NCBI GenBank assembly: GCA_026418625.1
Contig: JAOABA010000051.1
Span: 1 to 64,000 of the forward strand
Direction: 5' to 3'
DNA length: 64,000 nt
Source: Candidatus Kapaibacterium sp.
Lineage (GTDB): Bacteria; Bacteroidota; Ignavibacteria; Kapaibacteriales; UBA2268
Part shown: piece by piece, positions 1,569 through 63,085 of the stretch
How positions within the stretch are numbered: position 1 is the first letter of the stretch
How the letters are laid out: each line of letters opens with the position of its first letter
Program-made: the position numbers and the translations under genes
The notes under the pieces: generated by a model
What the model saw: only the letters and a program-made list of their open reading frames with translations
What the model was told of the DNA's origin: nothing
Database searches by the model: none

Positions 1569-2423
1569 ATGGCACAGATAACAGCTCAATTAGTTCAAGA
1601 GTTAAGAACTAAAACCGGAGCAGGAATGGGCGACTGCAAACAGGCACTTGTCGAAGCTAATGGTGATATGCAGTCCGCCATAGAAATTTTGCGAAAAAAA
1701 GGTATTGATACTGCCGCTAAACGCTCTGATAGAGCTTCAAACGAGGGTATTATTTCTATTAAAGCCACTGATGATGGGAAAACTATCTCAATGGTGGAAG
1801 TAAATTGCGAGACTGATTTTGTTGCAAGAAATCAGGAATTTGTTAATTTTTCTAACCTTTTGGTTGATGTTATTTTGCAAAATCAACCCAAAACAAGCGA
1901 TGAATTAATGAAAATAAAAGTCAATAATGACACTGTTGAAGGACTTTTTAACGAGATTTTAGCAAAATTTAACGAAAAAATCCAGATTAAAAGATTTGAA
2001 ACACTTAAAACTGATGGTTATTTCTCAAATTATGTCCACGCAGGAAGTAAACTGGCAGTCTTGCTCGAAATTAATATCTCTAATCCAGATGATGAAACCA
2101 AAGTCAAAATTAGAGACATAGCAATGCAAATCGCTGCTATGAACCCTCTTTTCATTGATAGAAAAGATGTGAGTGAAGATATTATAAATAAAGAAAAAGA
2201 AATCTACCGTGAAGTTCTATTAAAAGAAGGAAAAAATCCTAATTTTCTTGATAGAATTATTGAGGGCAAACTTGAGAAATTTTATCAGGAAAAGTGTTTA
2301 GTTGAACAGGTCTTCGTTAAAGATTCTACGAAAACAATTTCAGATGTTCTCAATGATATTTCAAAGTATATCGGGAAAGAAGTTAAAGTTTTGATGTTCA
2401 AACGCTATACATTAGGAGACTAA
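1569..2423 (+). CDS. tsf: Elongation factor Ts
   Basis: EF-Ts exchanges GDP for GTP on EF-Tu. The UBA-like N-terminus AQLVQELRTKTGAGMGDCK (residues 6-24) is the family signature. The second signature, VEVNCETDFVARNQEFV, lies near residues 77-93 and contains the TDFVA motif that contacts EF-Tu. At 284 residues it has the full length of the common bacterial form. AAAGGTAGG precedes the ATG. It is followed by pyrH after eight bases, so the pair is co-transcribed. Confidence 0.98.
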   Translation: MAQITAQLVQELRTKTGAGMGDCKQALVEANGDMQSAIEILRKKGIDTAAKRSDRASNEGIISIKATDDGKTISMVEVNCETDFVARNQEFVNFSNLLVDVILQNQPKTSDELMKIKVNNDTVEGLFNEILAKFNEKIQIKRFETLKTDGYFSNYVHAGSKLAVLLEINISNPDDETKVKIRDIAMQIAAMNPLFIDRKDVSEDIINKEKEIYREVLLKEGKNPNFLDRIIEGKLEKFYQEKCLVEQVFVKDSTKTISDVLNDISKYIGKEVKVLMFKRYTLGD

Positions 2424-2431
2424 TTTTTTAA

Positions 2432-3151
2432 ATGAGCGATAAGCCTATTTATAATAGAGTGCTTCTAAAATTAAGTGGTGAAGCCTTAATGGGTGAGCTT
2501 GAATTTGGAATCGACCCTAATGTTCTTTATTCATTCGCCGAAGAAATCCAATCAGTTCACTCTCTTGGAGTGCAGATTGGTATCGTAATTGGCGGAGGGA
2601 ATATTTTTAGGGGCATAAAATCAGCAGCTCACGGAATTCATCAGGTTTCGGGCGATAATATGGGTATGTTGGCAACCGTAATCAATTGTATTGCTTTTCA
2701 AAATGCTCTTGAGCATATTGGCATTCATACAAGACTTCAAACTGCTATTAAAATGGAACAAATTGCTGAGCCATTTATTAGACGACGAGCCATACGACAT
2801 TTAGAAAAAGGGCGGGTGGTCCTTTTTGGTGCTGGAACCGGAAGCCCATATTTTACTACAGACACAGCGGCAGTTCTCAGAGCTATTGAAATTGAAGCCG
2901 ATATCATACTCAAGGGAACCAAAGTTGATGGTGTTTATGACAGTGATCCAGTCCTAAACGAAAACGCCAAAATGTTTACCGAAATTACCTATTTAGATGT
3001 TATTCAAAAAAATCTAAGGGTGATGGATCAAACTGCTATAACTTTGAGTAAAGAACACAAATTGCCGATGAAAGTATTCAATATAAATAAAAAAGGTAAT
3101 CTCAAAAAAATAGTTACCGGCGAATATCTTGGAACCTTAGTTAGCTCTTAA
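2432..3151 (+). CDS. pyrH: UMP kinase
   Basis: Hexameric bacterial UMP kinase of the amino-acid-kinase fold, making UDP from UMP and ATP. The N-terminus has the [12 protein letters not shown] phosphate-binding segment (residues 10-21), then [13 protein letters not shown] near 50-62. The nucleotide site [15 protein letters not shown] lies near 134-148 and DGVYDSDP near 167-174. The 239 residues are the usual length. It starts only eight bases after tsf and lacks an obvious Shine-Dalgarno sequence, which suggests translational coupling. The order rpsB-tsf-pyrH-frr is the canonical bacterial cluster. Confidence 0.98.
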
Positions 3152-58918: not shown

Positions 58919-59356
58919 ATGCAAAGGTTAGTTTTTATAATTTTGACTTTAGTATTATTTTACTTAATAACTGATAAAACCACATTTGCAAATGACATAA
59001 ATCAAGAATCAACTCCTCCAATAATTGATATAAAACCAGACTCATTCTTTGTGAGCATTTCCGAAGGAAAATTTATAACAAGAAATATAAAAGTTCTCAA
59101 TCGAGGCGGTGAACCGCTATATATTAAATCAATAACCTCATCTTGCCAATGCGGCTCATCCCGTATATTAGCCGGAAAAGTTGAGCCTCTCGGTATCGGC
59201 AAAATTCAACTATCTGTTAATACCGAAGGTCTCTATGATGGCAACAATATAGTTGAATTCATTGTAAACAGCACTGCAAGAAATTCACCTACTCAAATTA
59301 AATTCGTGATTGATACTACAGCTGTTGATACTAATAAAACCGTAATCGAAAAATGA
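58919..59356 (+). CDS. DUF1573-family exported protein
   Basis: About 145 residues from the ATG at 58919 (MQRLVFIILTLV); an in-frame ATG 42 bases upstream lies inside dapB and is unlikely. The signal peptide is about 1-22. A single beta-sandwich of the DUF1573 type follows, with NRGGEPLYIKSITSSCQCGSSR (the CxCG motif) and PLGIGKIQLSVNTEGLYDGNN. It is an ASH/MSP-related fold common in Bacteroidota; its function is unknown. It starts one base after the dapB stop and its TGA overlaps the coaX ATG, so all three are co-translated. Confidence 0.85.
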   Translation: MQRLVFIILTLVLFYLITDKTTFANDINQESTPPIIDIKPDSFFVSISEGKFITRNIKVLNRGGEPLYIKSITSSCQCGSSRILAGKVEPLGIGKIQLSVNTEGLYDGNNIVEFIVNSTARNSPTQIKFVIDTTAVDTNKTVIEK

Positions 59357-60105
59357 CTCAAGAAAACAAAATAGCAGCTATTGATATAGGTAATTCATAT
59401 ATCAAAGCTATCATTGAAAGCGAAAAAATTTCTTGCGATTATTCAAATGAATGGTCAGATAAAATTTCCTTTTTTTTGGATAAAAATCTTCCAAAAAACA
59501 GCATAGTTGGAATTTCATCTGTTCAACCTGAAAGATTTAATCAACTCGTTGATAAAATTAAATATAATTATAAAATAGTGGCAGCGGAAGAACTGCTTAA
59601 AAATCAGAATCTCATCAATTTTGATGAAATAGAAGGAATCGGCAACGACCGTCTTCTTGGTTTGATAGGTGCTTTAAAAAAATTTTCTCCACCTTTAATC
59701 ACTATTGACTGTGGCACTGCCATCACAATTAATGTTCTTGATGAACAAAGAAAATGCCTTGGTGGAACAATTTCGGCAGGTATTGAAACCCAACTCGAAG
59801 CTCTATCAGAGAAAACAGCTCAACTTAAAAAAGTAGATTTATTTCTTGAAAACAACATCATTGGGAAAAATACCGAGTCAGCCCTTCGGAATGGTATAAT
59901 TAAGGGTGCAGTTGGCTCTATTCTTTATATTATCGAAAATATAATCAGTCAATATGATTTTAAAGATGACATCGATCTAATCCTTACAGGTGGCACTTCA
60001 AAATTAATTCTTCCATTACTCGAAAAATCTCATCTTAATATCCATTTCGATGAAAATCTTGTTCTTAATGGTTTAACTAATTTAATCCATTCAATTTATC
60101 ATTAA
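59353..60105 (+). CDS. coaX: Type III pantothenate kinase
   Basis: 250 residues of the CoaX (type III PanK) family, first step of coenzyme A synthesis. Visible motifs are AIDIGNSYIKA (about 9-19, phosphate binding), GIGNDRLLGLIGA (about 96-108), LITIDCGTAITINVL (about 115-129, catalytic Asp) and GGTISAGIETQLEALSEKTAQL (about 137-158). The class is insensitive to CoA feedback and needs a monovalent cation. It overlaps the DUF1573 gene by four bases. It is followed by a long non-coding array. Confidence 0.94.
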   Translation: MTQENKIAAIDIGNSYIKAIIESEKISCDYSNEWSDKISFFLDKNLPKNSIVGISSVQPERFNQLVDKIKYNYKIVAAEELLKNQNLINFDEIEGIGNDRLLGLIGALKKFSPPLITIDCGTAITINVLDEQRKCLGGTISAGIETQLEALSEKTAQLKKVDLFLENNIIGKNTESALRNGIIKGAVGSILYIIENIISQYDFKDDIDLILTGGTSKLILPLLEKSHLNIHFDENLVLNGLTNLIHSIYH

Positions 60106-60128
60106 TAAAACCATAATCTATCTATCTT

Positions 60129-61116
60129 CTCTGCGAACTCTGCGTCCTCTCTTTGCGTCCTCTGCGAGAAATAAATTAAAAACCCTATTTTTTATAAAAA
60201 AGATACGAACGGCTGATTAAATTTTATTTATTGGTCATTCTGACAAATAAAATTTGGAAGAATCCAGTATTTTTTTATGAATTTTTCTTCTTCGCACTGA
60301 ATTAACTGTTTCACGCAGAGCTCGCAGAGAATAATTTCTTGAATATAAAAGGAAATTGATCATTCGCAAAGCTCGCAGAGGTTTTTGAATTCGGTTAAGA
60401 ATTTAATAATCATTTTCTGAAAAATAATTTAAATTCCTTGAAAAAACTCTGCGATCTCTGCGTCCTCTCTTTGCGTCCTCTGCGAGAAATTTATTATAAA
60501 CCCCAATTATTAAAAAAAAAGATATATACGGGTGATATTATTCTTTTTATTGATCACTCTGACAAATAAAATTTGGAAGAATCCAGTATGTTTTTATAGA
60601 TTTCTCTGCTTAGCTCAGAATCAATTGTTTCACGCAGAGCTCGCAGAGAATAATTTCTATCGAATATAAAAGAAATTGATCATTCGCAAAGCTCGCAGAG
60701 GTTTTTAAATTCAGTTAAAAATTTAATTATCATCTTTCTGAAAATAATTTAAATACCTTGAAAAAACTCTGCGATCTCTGCGTCCTTTATTTGCGTCCTC
60801 TGCGAGAAATTTATTATAAACCCTATTTTTATAAAAAAGATACGATCGGGTGATAAAATTTTATTTATTGGTCATTCTGACAAATAAAATTTGGAAGAAT
60901 CCAGTATGTTTTTATAGATTTCTCTGCTTAGCTCAGAATCAATTATTTCACGCAGAGCTCGCAGAGAATAATTTCTATCGAATATAAAAGAAATTGATCA
61001 TTCGCAAAGCTCGCAGAGCTTTTTGAATTCAGTTAAAAATTTAATTATCTTCTTACCGAAAATAATTCAAGTACCTTGAAAAAACTCTGCTATCTCTGCG
61101 TCCTCTGCGAGAAACC
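60129..61116 (+). repeat. Tandem array: three copies of a roughly 319-bp unit plus a partial fourth
   Basis: Copies begin at 60129, 60447 and 60767, each with CTCTGCGA followed by TCTCTGCGTCCT, and a fourth partial copy runs 61085-61116. The spacing is 318, 320 and 318 bases. Copies 2 and 3 are nearly alike; copy 1 is more divergent. Each unit holds CTCTGCG words on one strand, then TTCTGACAAATAAAATTTGG and AAGAATCCAGTA, then inverted CGCAGAGCTCGCAGAG and CGCAAAGCTCGCAGAG words. The array fills most of the 1,123 bases between coaX and the lipoprotein gene. No reading frame is credible inside it. It could fold into strong hairpins on either strand. Confidence 0.93.
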
Positions 61117-61228
61117 AAAATTCATTTTAAACATATTTTTTAATAAGCATTGGAACAAATTTTGCTAAATTTTAAGTGGATTTTTACGATATTTTTTCAT
61201 TGTATTAAGGAATCTTAAACCAAAAAAA

Positions 61229-63085
61229 ATGAGAAAAATTTTATTCAATATACTAATCTTATTAATTACATCTTTGCTTATCTCCTGCTCAGCAAGATAT
61301 ATAACAATCAATTCACTGAATCATAATATTGAGGCTTTCAAGGGAGATACGGTTCAACTTAATTGGAATATCAGCAATGCCGATTATGTAAAAATCAATG
61401 GCTTTGATAAAAGATTTAGCACTAATGATTATATCAATATCGTTGCTGACACAACAACAAATTTTATCCTTACAGCCTATAGTGGCAAAAAAGATTCAGT
61501 TGTAAGAAGCATTAATTTAAACGTCAAGCAAACTGAAGCAATTTCTGGTATTGACTACTCGGACACTCCTGACTTCATTCTGAAAGAATCTAAAGAAGTT
61601 AATGACTTTTTCACCGGAATTAAGAATTTTTCTAAAGAGATTTCAATTTCAAAAGTAAAAATAACAAGTATTTACAAAGAATCAGAGAATTCCCCTGAAT
61701 TTGCTATTAGATTTATTTTGCTCGACGATTTCGGCAATTTCCTTGATAAAATTGATTTGAATGAAAACGAACTCCAACTTTCATTAGCCCAAACCTATGG
61801 CGACGAGAAATATACTCATATTTATAGCAAAATTAAAAAATGCGAAAATAAACCTTCAGATATATCAATTTTACTTGATAATTCTCTAAGCTCCTCGAAT
61901 CAGGATGAGATTTTATCTGAAATTGACGATTTCATCGGAAGACTGCCTTCTGAATCAAATGTTATGCTTTCCACATATAATCATAAATATGAAAATTTAA
62001 TTCAATTAACCCCCAAAAAAATTACAAGAAAATTACTTAAAAATATTAAACTAAAACCAAATGGCTTGAATTCTTTTTTTGAATCAATTTATCAAGCACT
62101 CTTGGATTTATCTAAAAGCAACAATAATAATAAGATTTTGATTGTCTTACTGAATAATTCCGATAATTCATCCTTAACAAAAGATTATACTGACTGCCTT
62201 GAATTATCGAAGAAATTGAAGATTCCTGTTTATTTCGTAATAATGAATGATTTCATTTCTACTTATCCGATGAAATTAATTTCTTCAAATAGTGGTGGTT
62301 ACGTTTTCTATAAAAGTGATTTTAGCAATAATTTCAACTTGAGTTCACTGCTTTCGGAAACTGAATTATCAAGCAGATTTTATTACGAAATAAAAGCACC
62401 ATTTTTTCATTCTTCAGAGAAAAGCAAAATCATTGGTATTAATCTTAATTTAGTCCAGAATGAAGAGAAAATTTCTGATAAAACTTTATTTTATTCATCC
62501 AAAATAAAAACACCAAATGAAAGAAAAATCATAGCAACTTTTGATGAAGATCAACACAGACTTAAAGAAGAATATGCCGATAAAATTTTCACCTTTGCAG
62601 AAATGTTAATTAAAAACCCAGAAAAAAGCATTCGGCTTTTTGGTCATTCTTCTAAAAACGAAGATATTTCCTCGTCTGAATCAATTTCCCTAAAAAGAGC
62701 TAATGAAATAAAAGAAAAGCTTATTAATCTTGGTGTAAAGGCAGAACAAATCGAAGTCAGAGATTTGGGAAGTTCTAAACCAGTATATTCATTTGAGCAG
62801 GATGAATGGCAAAGAGAAATGAATCGCCGAGTTGAATTTAAATGGATTGAGCCTTCTGCTCTGCCCTATGAAATCATTGCTCAAACTACTAATTCAGAAT
62901 ACTCTGCAATTAAATTAACCGAAGAATGGGAAAAACAAGGTTTCCGCTCATATTTCGAAAGAACGGAGTCAATGAATGAACCAATTTATAAAATTAAACT
63001 CTGGGGCTTCCCCTCCAAGGAAGAAGCCGAAAAAGTCATCAAAAAACTAAACCAAAAATTTAGTCTTGTCTTTGATATTGAGTAA
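61229..63085 (+). CDS. Lipoprotein with VWA-like, OmpA and SPOR domains
   Basis: 618 residues. The lipobox LLISC places the lipidated Cys at 20. An immunoglobulin-like stretch runs about 30-105. A VWA-like domain (about 205-385) has the MIDAS-like DNSLS near 216. An OmpA-type peptidoglycan-binding domain (about 430-545) shows IRLFGHSSKNEDI, LSLKRANEIKEKLINLGV and NRRVEFKW. A C-terminal SPOR-like domain (about 548-618; YSAIKLTEEWEKQGFRSYFERTE ... KLWGFPSKEEAEKVIKKL) should bind denuded glycan. The protein is predicted at the outer membrane, tethered to peptidoglycan. VWA, OmpA and SPOR in one lipoprotein is an uncommon combination. Function is unknown. Confidence 0.83.
   Translation: MRKILFNILILLITSLLISCSARYITINSLNHNIEAFKGDTVQLNWNISNADYVKINGFDKRFSTNDYINIVADTTTNFILTAYSGKKDSVVRSINLNVKQTEAISGIDYSDTPDFILKESKEVNDFFTGIKNFSKEISISKVKITSIYKESENSPEFAIRFILLDDFGNFLDKIDLNENELQLSLAQTYGDEKYTHIYSKIKKCENKPSDISILLDNSLSSSNQDEILSEIDDFIGRLPSESNVMLSTYNHKYENLIQLTPKKITRKLLKNIKLKPNGLNSFFESIYQALLDLSKSNNNNKILIVLLNNSDNSSLTKDYTDCLELSKKLKIPVYFVIMNDFISTYPMKLISSNSGGYVFYKSDFSNNFNLSSLLSETELSSRFYYEIKAPFFHSSEKSKIIGINLNLVQNEEKISDKTLFYSSKIKTPNERKIIATFDEDQHRLKEEYADKIFTFAEMLIKNPEKSIRLFGHSSKNEDISSSESISLKRANEIKEKLINLGVKAEQIEVRDLGSSKPVYSFEQDEWQREMNRRVEFKWIEPSALPYEIIAQTTNSEYSAIKLTEEWEKQGFRSYFERTESMNEPIYKIKLWGFPSKEEAEKVIKKLNQKFSLVFDIE

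Follow-up and report, generated by a model that had tools for sequence, protein, structure and literature searches.

Tandem hairpin elements between coaX and a lipoprotein gene of Candidatus Kapaibacterium sp.: probable MITE-like relatives of elements that carry a GxxExxY gene

The tandem array that follows coaX in the window (the whole 64,000-nucleotide stretch of DNA that was analysed) probably consists of non-autonomous, ORF-less elements similar to miniature inverted-repeat transposable elements (MITEs). They would belong to a family of elements that bear a GxxExxY gene and are bounded by inverted arms of iterated words. Of the three ideas in the preliminary description (a structured RNA, a chromosome-structuring repeat, and a non-autonomous mobile element inserting beside its own copies), the last comes closest to the evidence: copies are dispersed, a same-genus genome has an empty site, several loci have tandem arrays, and a nuclease gene lies in a sister array. 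Several independent tests link the words with the GxxExxY gene. At unrelated sites the arms and the gene act as a unit, and word kinds vary with the protein subfamily. Presence/absence patterns and paralogues point to mobility of the elements, in which the nuclease probably has a role. Intergenic regions of many phyla repeatedly contain words such as CTCTGCG, CTCTGTG, CTTTGTG, and ATCCGTG, for which the papers searched offer no explanation, and GxxExxY is itself a common protein family to which no function is assigned. A link between the two suggests functions that can be tested: GxxExxY would be the enzyme of a minimal mobile element and the words its recognition sequence. Many intergenic regions now taken as "unique" would then count as remnants of elements.

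Layout and insertion site of the window array

The copies start at 60129, 60447, and 60767, with a partial copy from 61085 and a period of 318-320 bp, as the preliminary description had placed them, and no ORF of at least 80 aa crosses the array, which agrees with its statement that no reading frame runs through. Copies 2 and 3 had been called nearly identical; they are highly alike, but the wording is slightly strong for an identity of 92% (copies 1 and 2, 87%; copies 1 and 3, 88%). With up to two mismatches, CTCTGCGNNCTCTGCG has 14 matches in the window, all of them within the array, against 0.03 expected. The natural unit is a hairpin element of about 180 bp and not the 319-bp period. Its ends are TTTCA-CGCAGAG and CTCTGCG-AGAAA, and it follows the pattern TTTCA-CGCAGAG..CGCAGAG, 35 nt, CGCAAAG..CGCAGAG, 66 nt, CTCTGCG..CTCTGCG..CTCTGCG-AGAAA.

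The array is composed of three complete elements and one half element, all on the + strand, with spacers of about 137 nt. The half element at the array start (60129-60171) has the right arm only, CTCTGCGAACTCTGCG..CTTTGCGTCCTCTGCG-AGAAA. Element 1 (60309-60489) is complete with both arms, element 2 (60628-60809) is also complete, and element 3 (60946-61114), complete as well, has a right arm shortened to CTCTGCTATCTCTGCGTCCTCTGCG-AGAAA. The spacers contain a second repeat that was missed in the preliminary description, here called repeat B (GTCATTCTGAC..GAAGAATCC, also given as GTCATTCTGAC..GGAAGAATCC). Its copies lie on the + strand at 60235-60265, at 60554-60584 (read from the sequence and homologous to the other repeat B matches), and at 60872-60902, and copy 1, TCATTCTGACAAATAAAATTTGGAAGAATCC, is a REP-like imperfect palindrome that is dispersed elsewhere. 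The repeat B palindrome TCATTCTGACAAACGAAGTTTGGAAGAATCC is also found in or near several other word arrays (G000:C10:79132, C19:26166, C53:42800, and others), and presumably resembles the cross-phylum phrase GTCATTCTGAGCGAAGCGAAGAATC. A tail at 61115-61146 (+ strand) resembles the right flank of another array (L019) and reaches up to the point where the ancestral sequence resumes. The array is not a CRISPR array, since its spacers are homologous between units and not unique.

The insert (60072-61146, no strand assigned) is absent from the syntenic locus of the only same-genus genome compared, G001, in which the gene order dapB, DUF1573-like gene, coaX, and lipoprotein gene is kept around the insertion site. 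The local alignment with G001 stops in the 3' end of coaX at 60071 and resumes at GC(A/T)TTGGAACAAATTTTGC at 61147; in place of the roughly 1,075 bp between these points, G001 has a few tens of bp. The left neighbour, coaX (59353-60105, + strand; type III pantothenate kinase), differs from G001 in its last codons at the junction, and the right neighbour (61229-63085, + strand), which is syntenic in G001, encodes a 618-aa lipoprotein with an OmpA-like C-terminus. G001 has no array at this locus and no such words anywhere in its genome. No excision product was seen, nor could a target-site duplication be read at the junctions, where the flanks in G001 and in the Algoriphagus genomes described below have diverged too far. 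The empty sites could partly be losses.

The units fold into large hairpins as the preliminary description had predicted (RNA -51.3 kcal/mol, z -5.7; DNA z -4.65), and one strand of the window element, as seen for element 2, forms two stems, one outer and one inner, and a side hairpin of 35 nt. The idea of a structured RNA has this strong fold in its favour, but the covariation among 13 homologous copies is slight, and no family of Rfam 15 matches the window array above its gathering score.

GxxExxY genes and inverted arms across phyla

The preliminary description, which has no nuclease link, had placed such words among the intergenic repeats of other phyla, and the word pair is indeed present in genomes of many phyla, where it often forms inverted arms 60-150 nt apart. 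In an all-against-all clustering of the ORFs near the words, PF13366/TIGR04256 was the only small family that recurred across loci; an ABC-transporter ATPase cluster and one further cluster were treated as background. The first residues of the Scytonema GxxExxY protein, MNRRGAENAERR, are the words read in frame. The family was then tested for directly in the window genome, whose only PF13366 (GxxExxY) gene sits inside a CTCTGCG array (G000:C33, gene at 498-875, words at 1-431 and 957-1267). The chance of a single GxxExxY gene landing inside an array is about 0.7%.

The gene-bearing element encodes a protein of about 125 aa. The product of the sister-array gene is a clear member of the GxxExxY family (TIGR04256, PF13366), which is named only by its motif, with 142 bits against a cut-off of 35, a score that applies to the gene and not to the window array. 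It keeps E27, D67, ExK 77/79, and QxxxY 91/95, and the GxxExxY glutamate, D, ExK, and QxxxY are 94-100% conserved among 124 proteins. These conserved residues are the signature of RecB/Cas4-type PD-(D/E)XK nucleases. PADLOC gives weak Cas4 matches only (E 0.005-0.05), phmmer against the PDB gives no match, and an AlphaFold model from 3 sequences has a mean pLDDT of 42 and is too poor for a fold search. The open literature searched holds no description of a function or a mobile element for this family.

PF13366 genes in relatives are flanked by inverted iterated words whose letters vary by locus (CACAGAG, CACAAAG, CACGGAT, GGATT-type). Arms were scored by comparing the upstream flank with the reverse complement of the downstream flank, and the flanks of other loci provided the null. 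Inverted arms exceeded 99% of this null at 24 of the 46 GxxExxY loci of the first set and at 72 of the 129 of the full set, which covers many phyla and an ANME archaeon, compared with 0 of 26 coaX control loci; about 44% of GxxExxY loci have no significant arms. A kinship-only set, scored apart because some genomes had been picked for their words, gave 23 of 39. The arm alignments come from Acidobacteriota, Bacteroidota, Chloroflexota, Cyanobacteria, KSB1, Lentisphaerota, and Planctomycetota, as well as from several proteobacterial lineages and an ANME-2 archaeon, and a 9-nt period is common to the arms of GxxExxY loci.

The more identical two proteins are, the more alike are their arms (Spearman 0.275; the maximum of 500 permutations was 0.118). 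Words that end in AG accompany LGPGLLES-type proteins, CACRGATT accompanies the LG(H/F/Y)GFLE type, and GTCTGAA together with GGATT accompanies LGNGFQEVIY. The co-variation of word kind and protein subfamily would amount to a natural code for the specificity of a Cas4- and RecB-related nuclease; co-inheritance alone could also yield the correlation. A GxxExxY gene is present in 10 of the 12 genomes with at least 5 CTYTGYG pairs and in 13 of the 48 others (p 6e-4). Inverted iterated flanks, built of other words, also occur at S23 four-helix genes (PF05635), where 9 of 25 exceed the same threshold. The arms are thus not exclusive to GxxExxY and may characterise a broader group of small elements.

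Arms plus gene as one unit in Algoriphagus and Sporomusa

The joined flanks of five Algoriphagus elements were searched against 40 congeneric genomes. At the L373 site, five species are empty with 38-65 nt between the flanks, three species hold the arms plus the GxxExxY gene, and further species have shorter inserts, some of which are arms without the gene. At the L396 site, the full element is present in twelve other species, several species have the right arm only, and one is empty. Among the orthologues of this second site, the left arm matches its own right arm above those of other species (permutation p 0.0013, with relatedness not controlled). The paralogues L373 and L374 of one Algoriphagus genome align arm to arm and have unrelated flanks.

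Sporomusa has three gene-less units of about 140 bp in tandem after the gene, the first of which keeps the arm and the gene start (81% over 81 bp). The Sporomusa gene-less unit is an internal-deletion derivative, and its tandem array is like that of the window. The series, a gene-bearing element followed by the three units, occupies 2237-3140 of the Sporomusa sp. KB1 locus L321, and its copies lie in a 4.9-kb stretch that is present twice in identical form, so the element borders are not shown by them. Plasmids, with only 8 records that have a GxxExxY protein, are of no help for the borders.

These sites bear on the question of whether the words are an independent repeat family into which GxxExxY genes insert, with a nuclease that does not move words. 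Insertion into REPs is known from some IS elements. Gene-less arrays outnumber those that have the gene, the L225 gene sits between the arms of neighbouring units, and two relatives, G003 and G025, have 23 and 38 CTYTGYG pairs with no PF13366 gene detected, which would be explained by orphaned word families or by incomplete assemblies. All this would suit an independent family, but five congeners at the L373 site are without gene and arms together, L373 and L374 have arms and gene in common and not their flanks, and the word kind tracks the protein subfamily; we therefore consider independent words unlikely.

If the window array consists of MITE-like members of the GxxExxY-bearing family, the arms would fold as hairpins (ssDNA or cruciform) or act as paired iterated binding sites. 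The GxxExxY nuclease, in cis or in trans, would cut at or near an arm, and host repair or replication would copy the element to a new place. A preference of the nuclease for its own words would favour insertion beside an existing copy, and insertion of this kind would produce tandem arrays. Ordinary unequal recombination after one insertion accounts for the growth of the array equally well, given how alike copies 2 and 3 are.

The repeat family in the host genome and comparison with known systems

The preliminary description had considered that the units might be unique to this locus, and they are not. The 3.3-Mb host genome contains 52 exact word pairs, 26 per strand, in about 36 clusters (reversed control pattern, 0), and about 50 other places in it match the window unit. 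Family copies elsewhere in the genome are only 55-75% identical to the window copies, and 13 homologous cores align along their length with end motifs in common. The clusters have a grammar of doublets with a 2-nt gap, in which one arm has an insert of about 35 nt and the other of about 5 nt, and their centres measure about 18 and about 65 nt. Word clusters occupy well under 1% of the genome and none of the 36 overlaps an ORF of at least 100 aa, while convergent gene pairs flank 17 of 28 clusters (p 6e-8 by gene pairs; 1e-4 by intergenic length).

Such a strong bias to convergent intergenic regions, together with the strong fold, could reflect a structure that is useful to the host and under selection, such as a bidirectional terminator, an mRNA 3'-end hairpin, or a nucleoid-organising repeat. 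The bias is also expected if insertions survive where they are harmless. Moreover, the same-genus genome and almost all relatives lack the array in this form, and compensatory changes are few, which makes a host-useful structure quite improbable.

Movement of REP/REPIN-type elements by RAYT (Y1 transposase) is the best known system of such kind, and the host genome carries Y1_Tnp sequences. REP, BIME, and REPIN sequences with RAYT (PMC2817692, PMC3116915) resemble the window family in their alternating inverted short words, mosaic arrays, hairpins, and intergenic position, and in having one associated enzyme gene per genome. In contrast, the window family is without a GTAG-type tag, its enzyme is a PD-(D/E)XK nuclease, and within one genome its word kinds vary by locus. 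The RAYT-like locus of the host is flanked by palindromes different from those of the array and has no CTCTGCG words within 1.5 kb, and a RAYT origin is accordingly very improbable. At this locus (L061, G000:C14:~42000), the Y1_Tnp-like genes have their own palindromes, CCACGAATAAATTCGTGG and ATTCATCCGATGACTTAGAGTCATCGGATGAAT. An assembly artefact or chance expansion is hardly credible. Near-identical copies in tandem are a well-known hazard in assembly, and the draft genome has 58 contigs, but the three units differ from one another at 8-13% of their positions, and about 35 other loci, on other contigs, have members of the family.

Bacterial MITEs (reviewed in PMC10969869) and the window family are both short, AT-rich, intergenic, foldable, and present in many copies with terminal inverted arms; both are related to a rarer gene-bearing element and include internal-deletion derivatives. 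The family of the window array is short and ORF-less with inverted ends and dispersed intergenic copies, and a gene-bearing relative with the same ends is present in the same genome, though its right arm is not intact. MITEs differ in having one unique terminal repeat, whereas the arms of the window family consist of iterated 9-nt words, and in having a known transposase as partner instead of a RecB/Cas4-like nuclease; for the window family, no target-site duplication was resolved. The S23 element known from 23S rRNA intervening sequences is regarded as selfish, with unclear mobility, and has complementary arms at its borders (PMC4990558). It resembles the GxxExxY elements in having a small ORF between complementary arms that form a long stem, and S23 genes outside rRNA have inverted iterated flanks as at GxxExxY loci. 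The GxxExxY elements differ from it in protein, in words, and in not being located in rRNA, and the S23-like gene of the host genome (L425) has no such arms. The window array, lying between coaX and the lipoprotein gene, is not an intervening sequence of this type. The TAACTGA heptamer repeats of Beggiatoaceae, cyanobacteria, and Bacteroidetes (PMC4679880) are similarly intergenic and patchily distributed across phyla, but they are direct repeats of a single word upstream of start codons, with no link to a nuclease or to inverted arms.

A broader proposal is offered tentatively, and it may well prove wrong. The GxxExxY genes and iterated-word repeats of bacterial phyla and archaea may form one superfamily of mobile elements, not described before, in which a single RecB/Cas4-like nuclease would move a hairpin element whose 9-nt words, specific to each locus, it recognises as a code; the S23 four-helix elements would be a class parallel to it. 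The open literature searched has no description of a GxxExxY element with word arms, and a literature search with the words themselves found none.

Several further loci show the variety of such flanks. S23/four-helix-bundle genes outside rRNA (L401-L430, e.g., L409, L411, L413, L414, and L419) have the words TTAGGCT, CTTGGTTA, GAATTAAG, GTTCATA, and GGGACGA. Fischerella muscicola PCC 7414 has three tandem units of about 114 bp made of CACGGATGAA words beside one GxxExxY gene (L323, 1700-2000) and CTCTGCG-type units beside another (L324); these copies belong to different arm classes. Two GxxExxY copies of a member of Spirochaetales (L328 and L330, G093) have about 700 bp in common, and their flanks are long and GC-rich (GGGTTCAGCTTCGCTGAAGCC), of a type other than iterated words. 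The genome of L092 (G073) contains at least 40 PF13366 matches, many of them short or with stops, and this graveyard of GxxExxY copies is useful for timing element activity.
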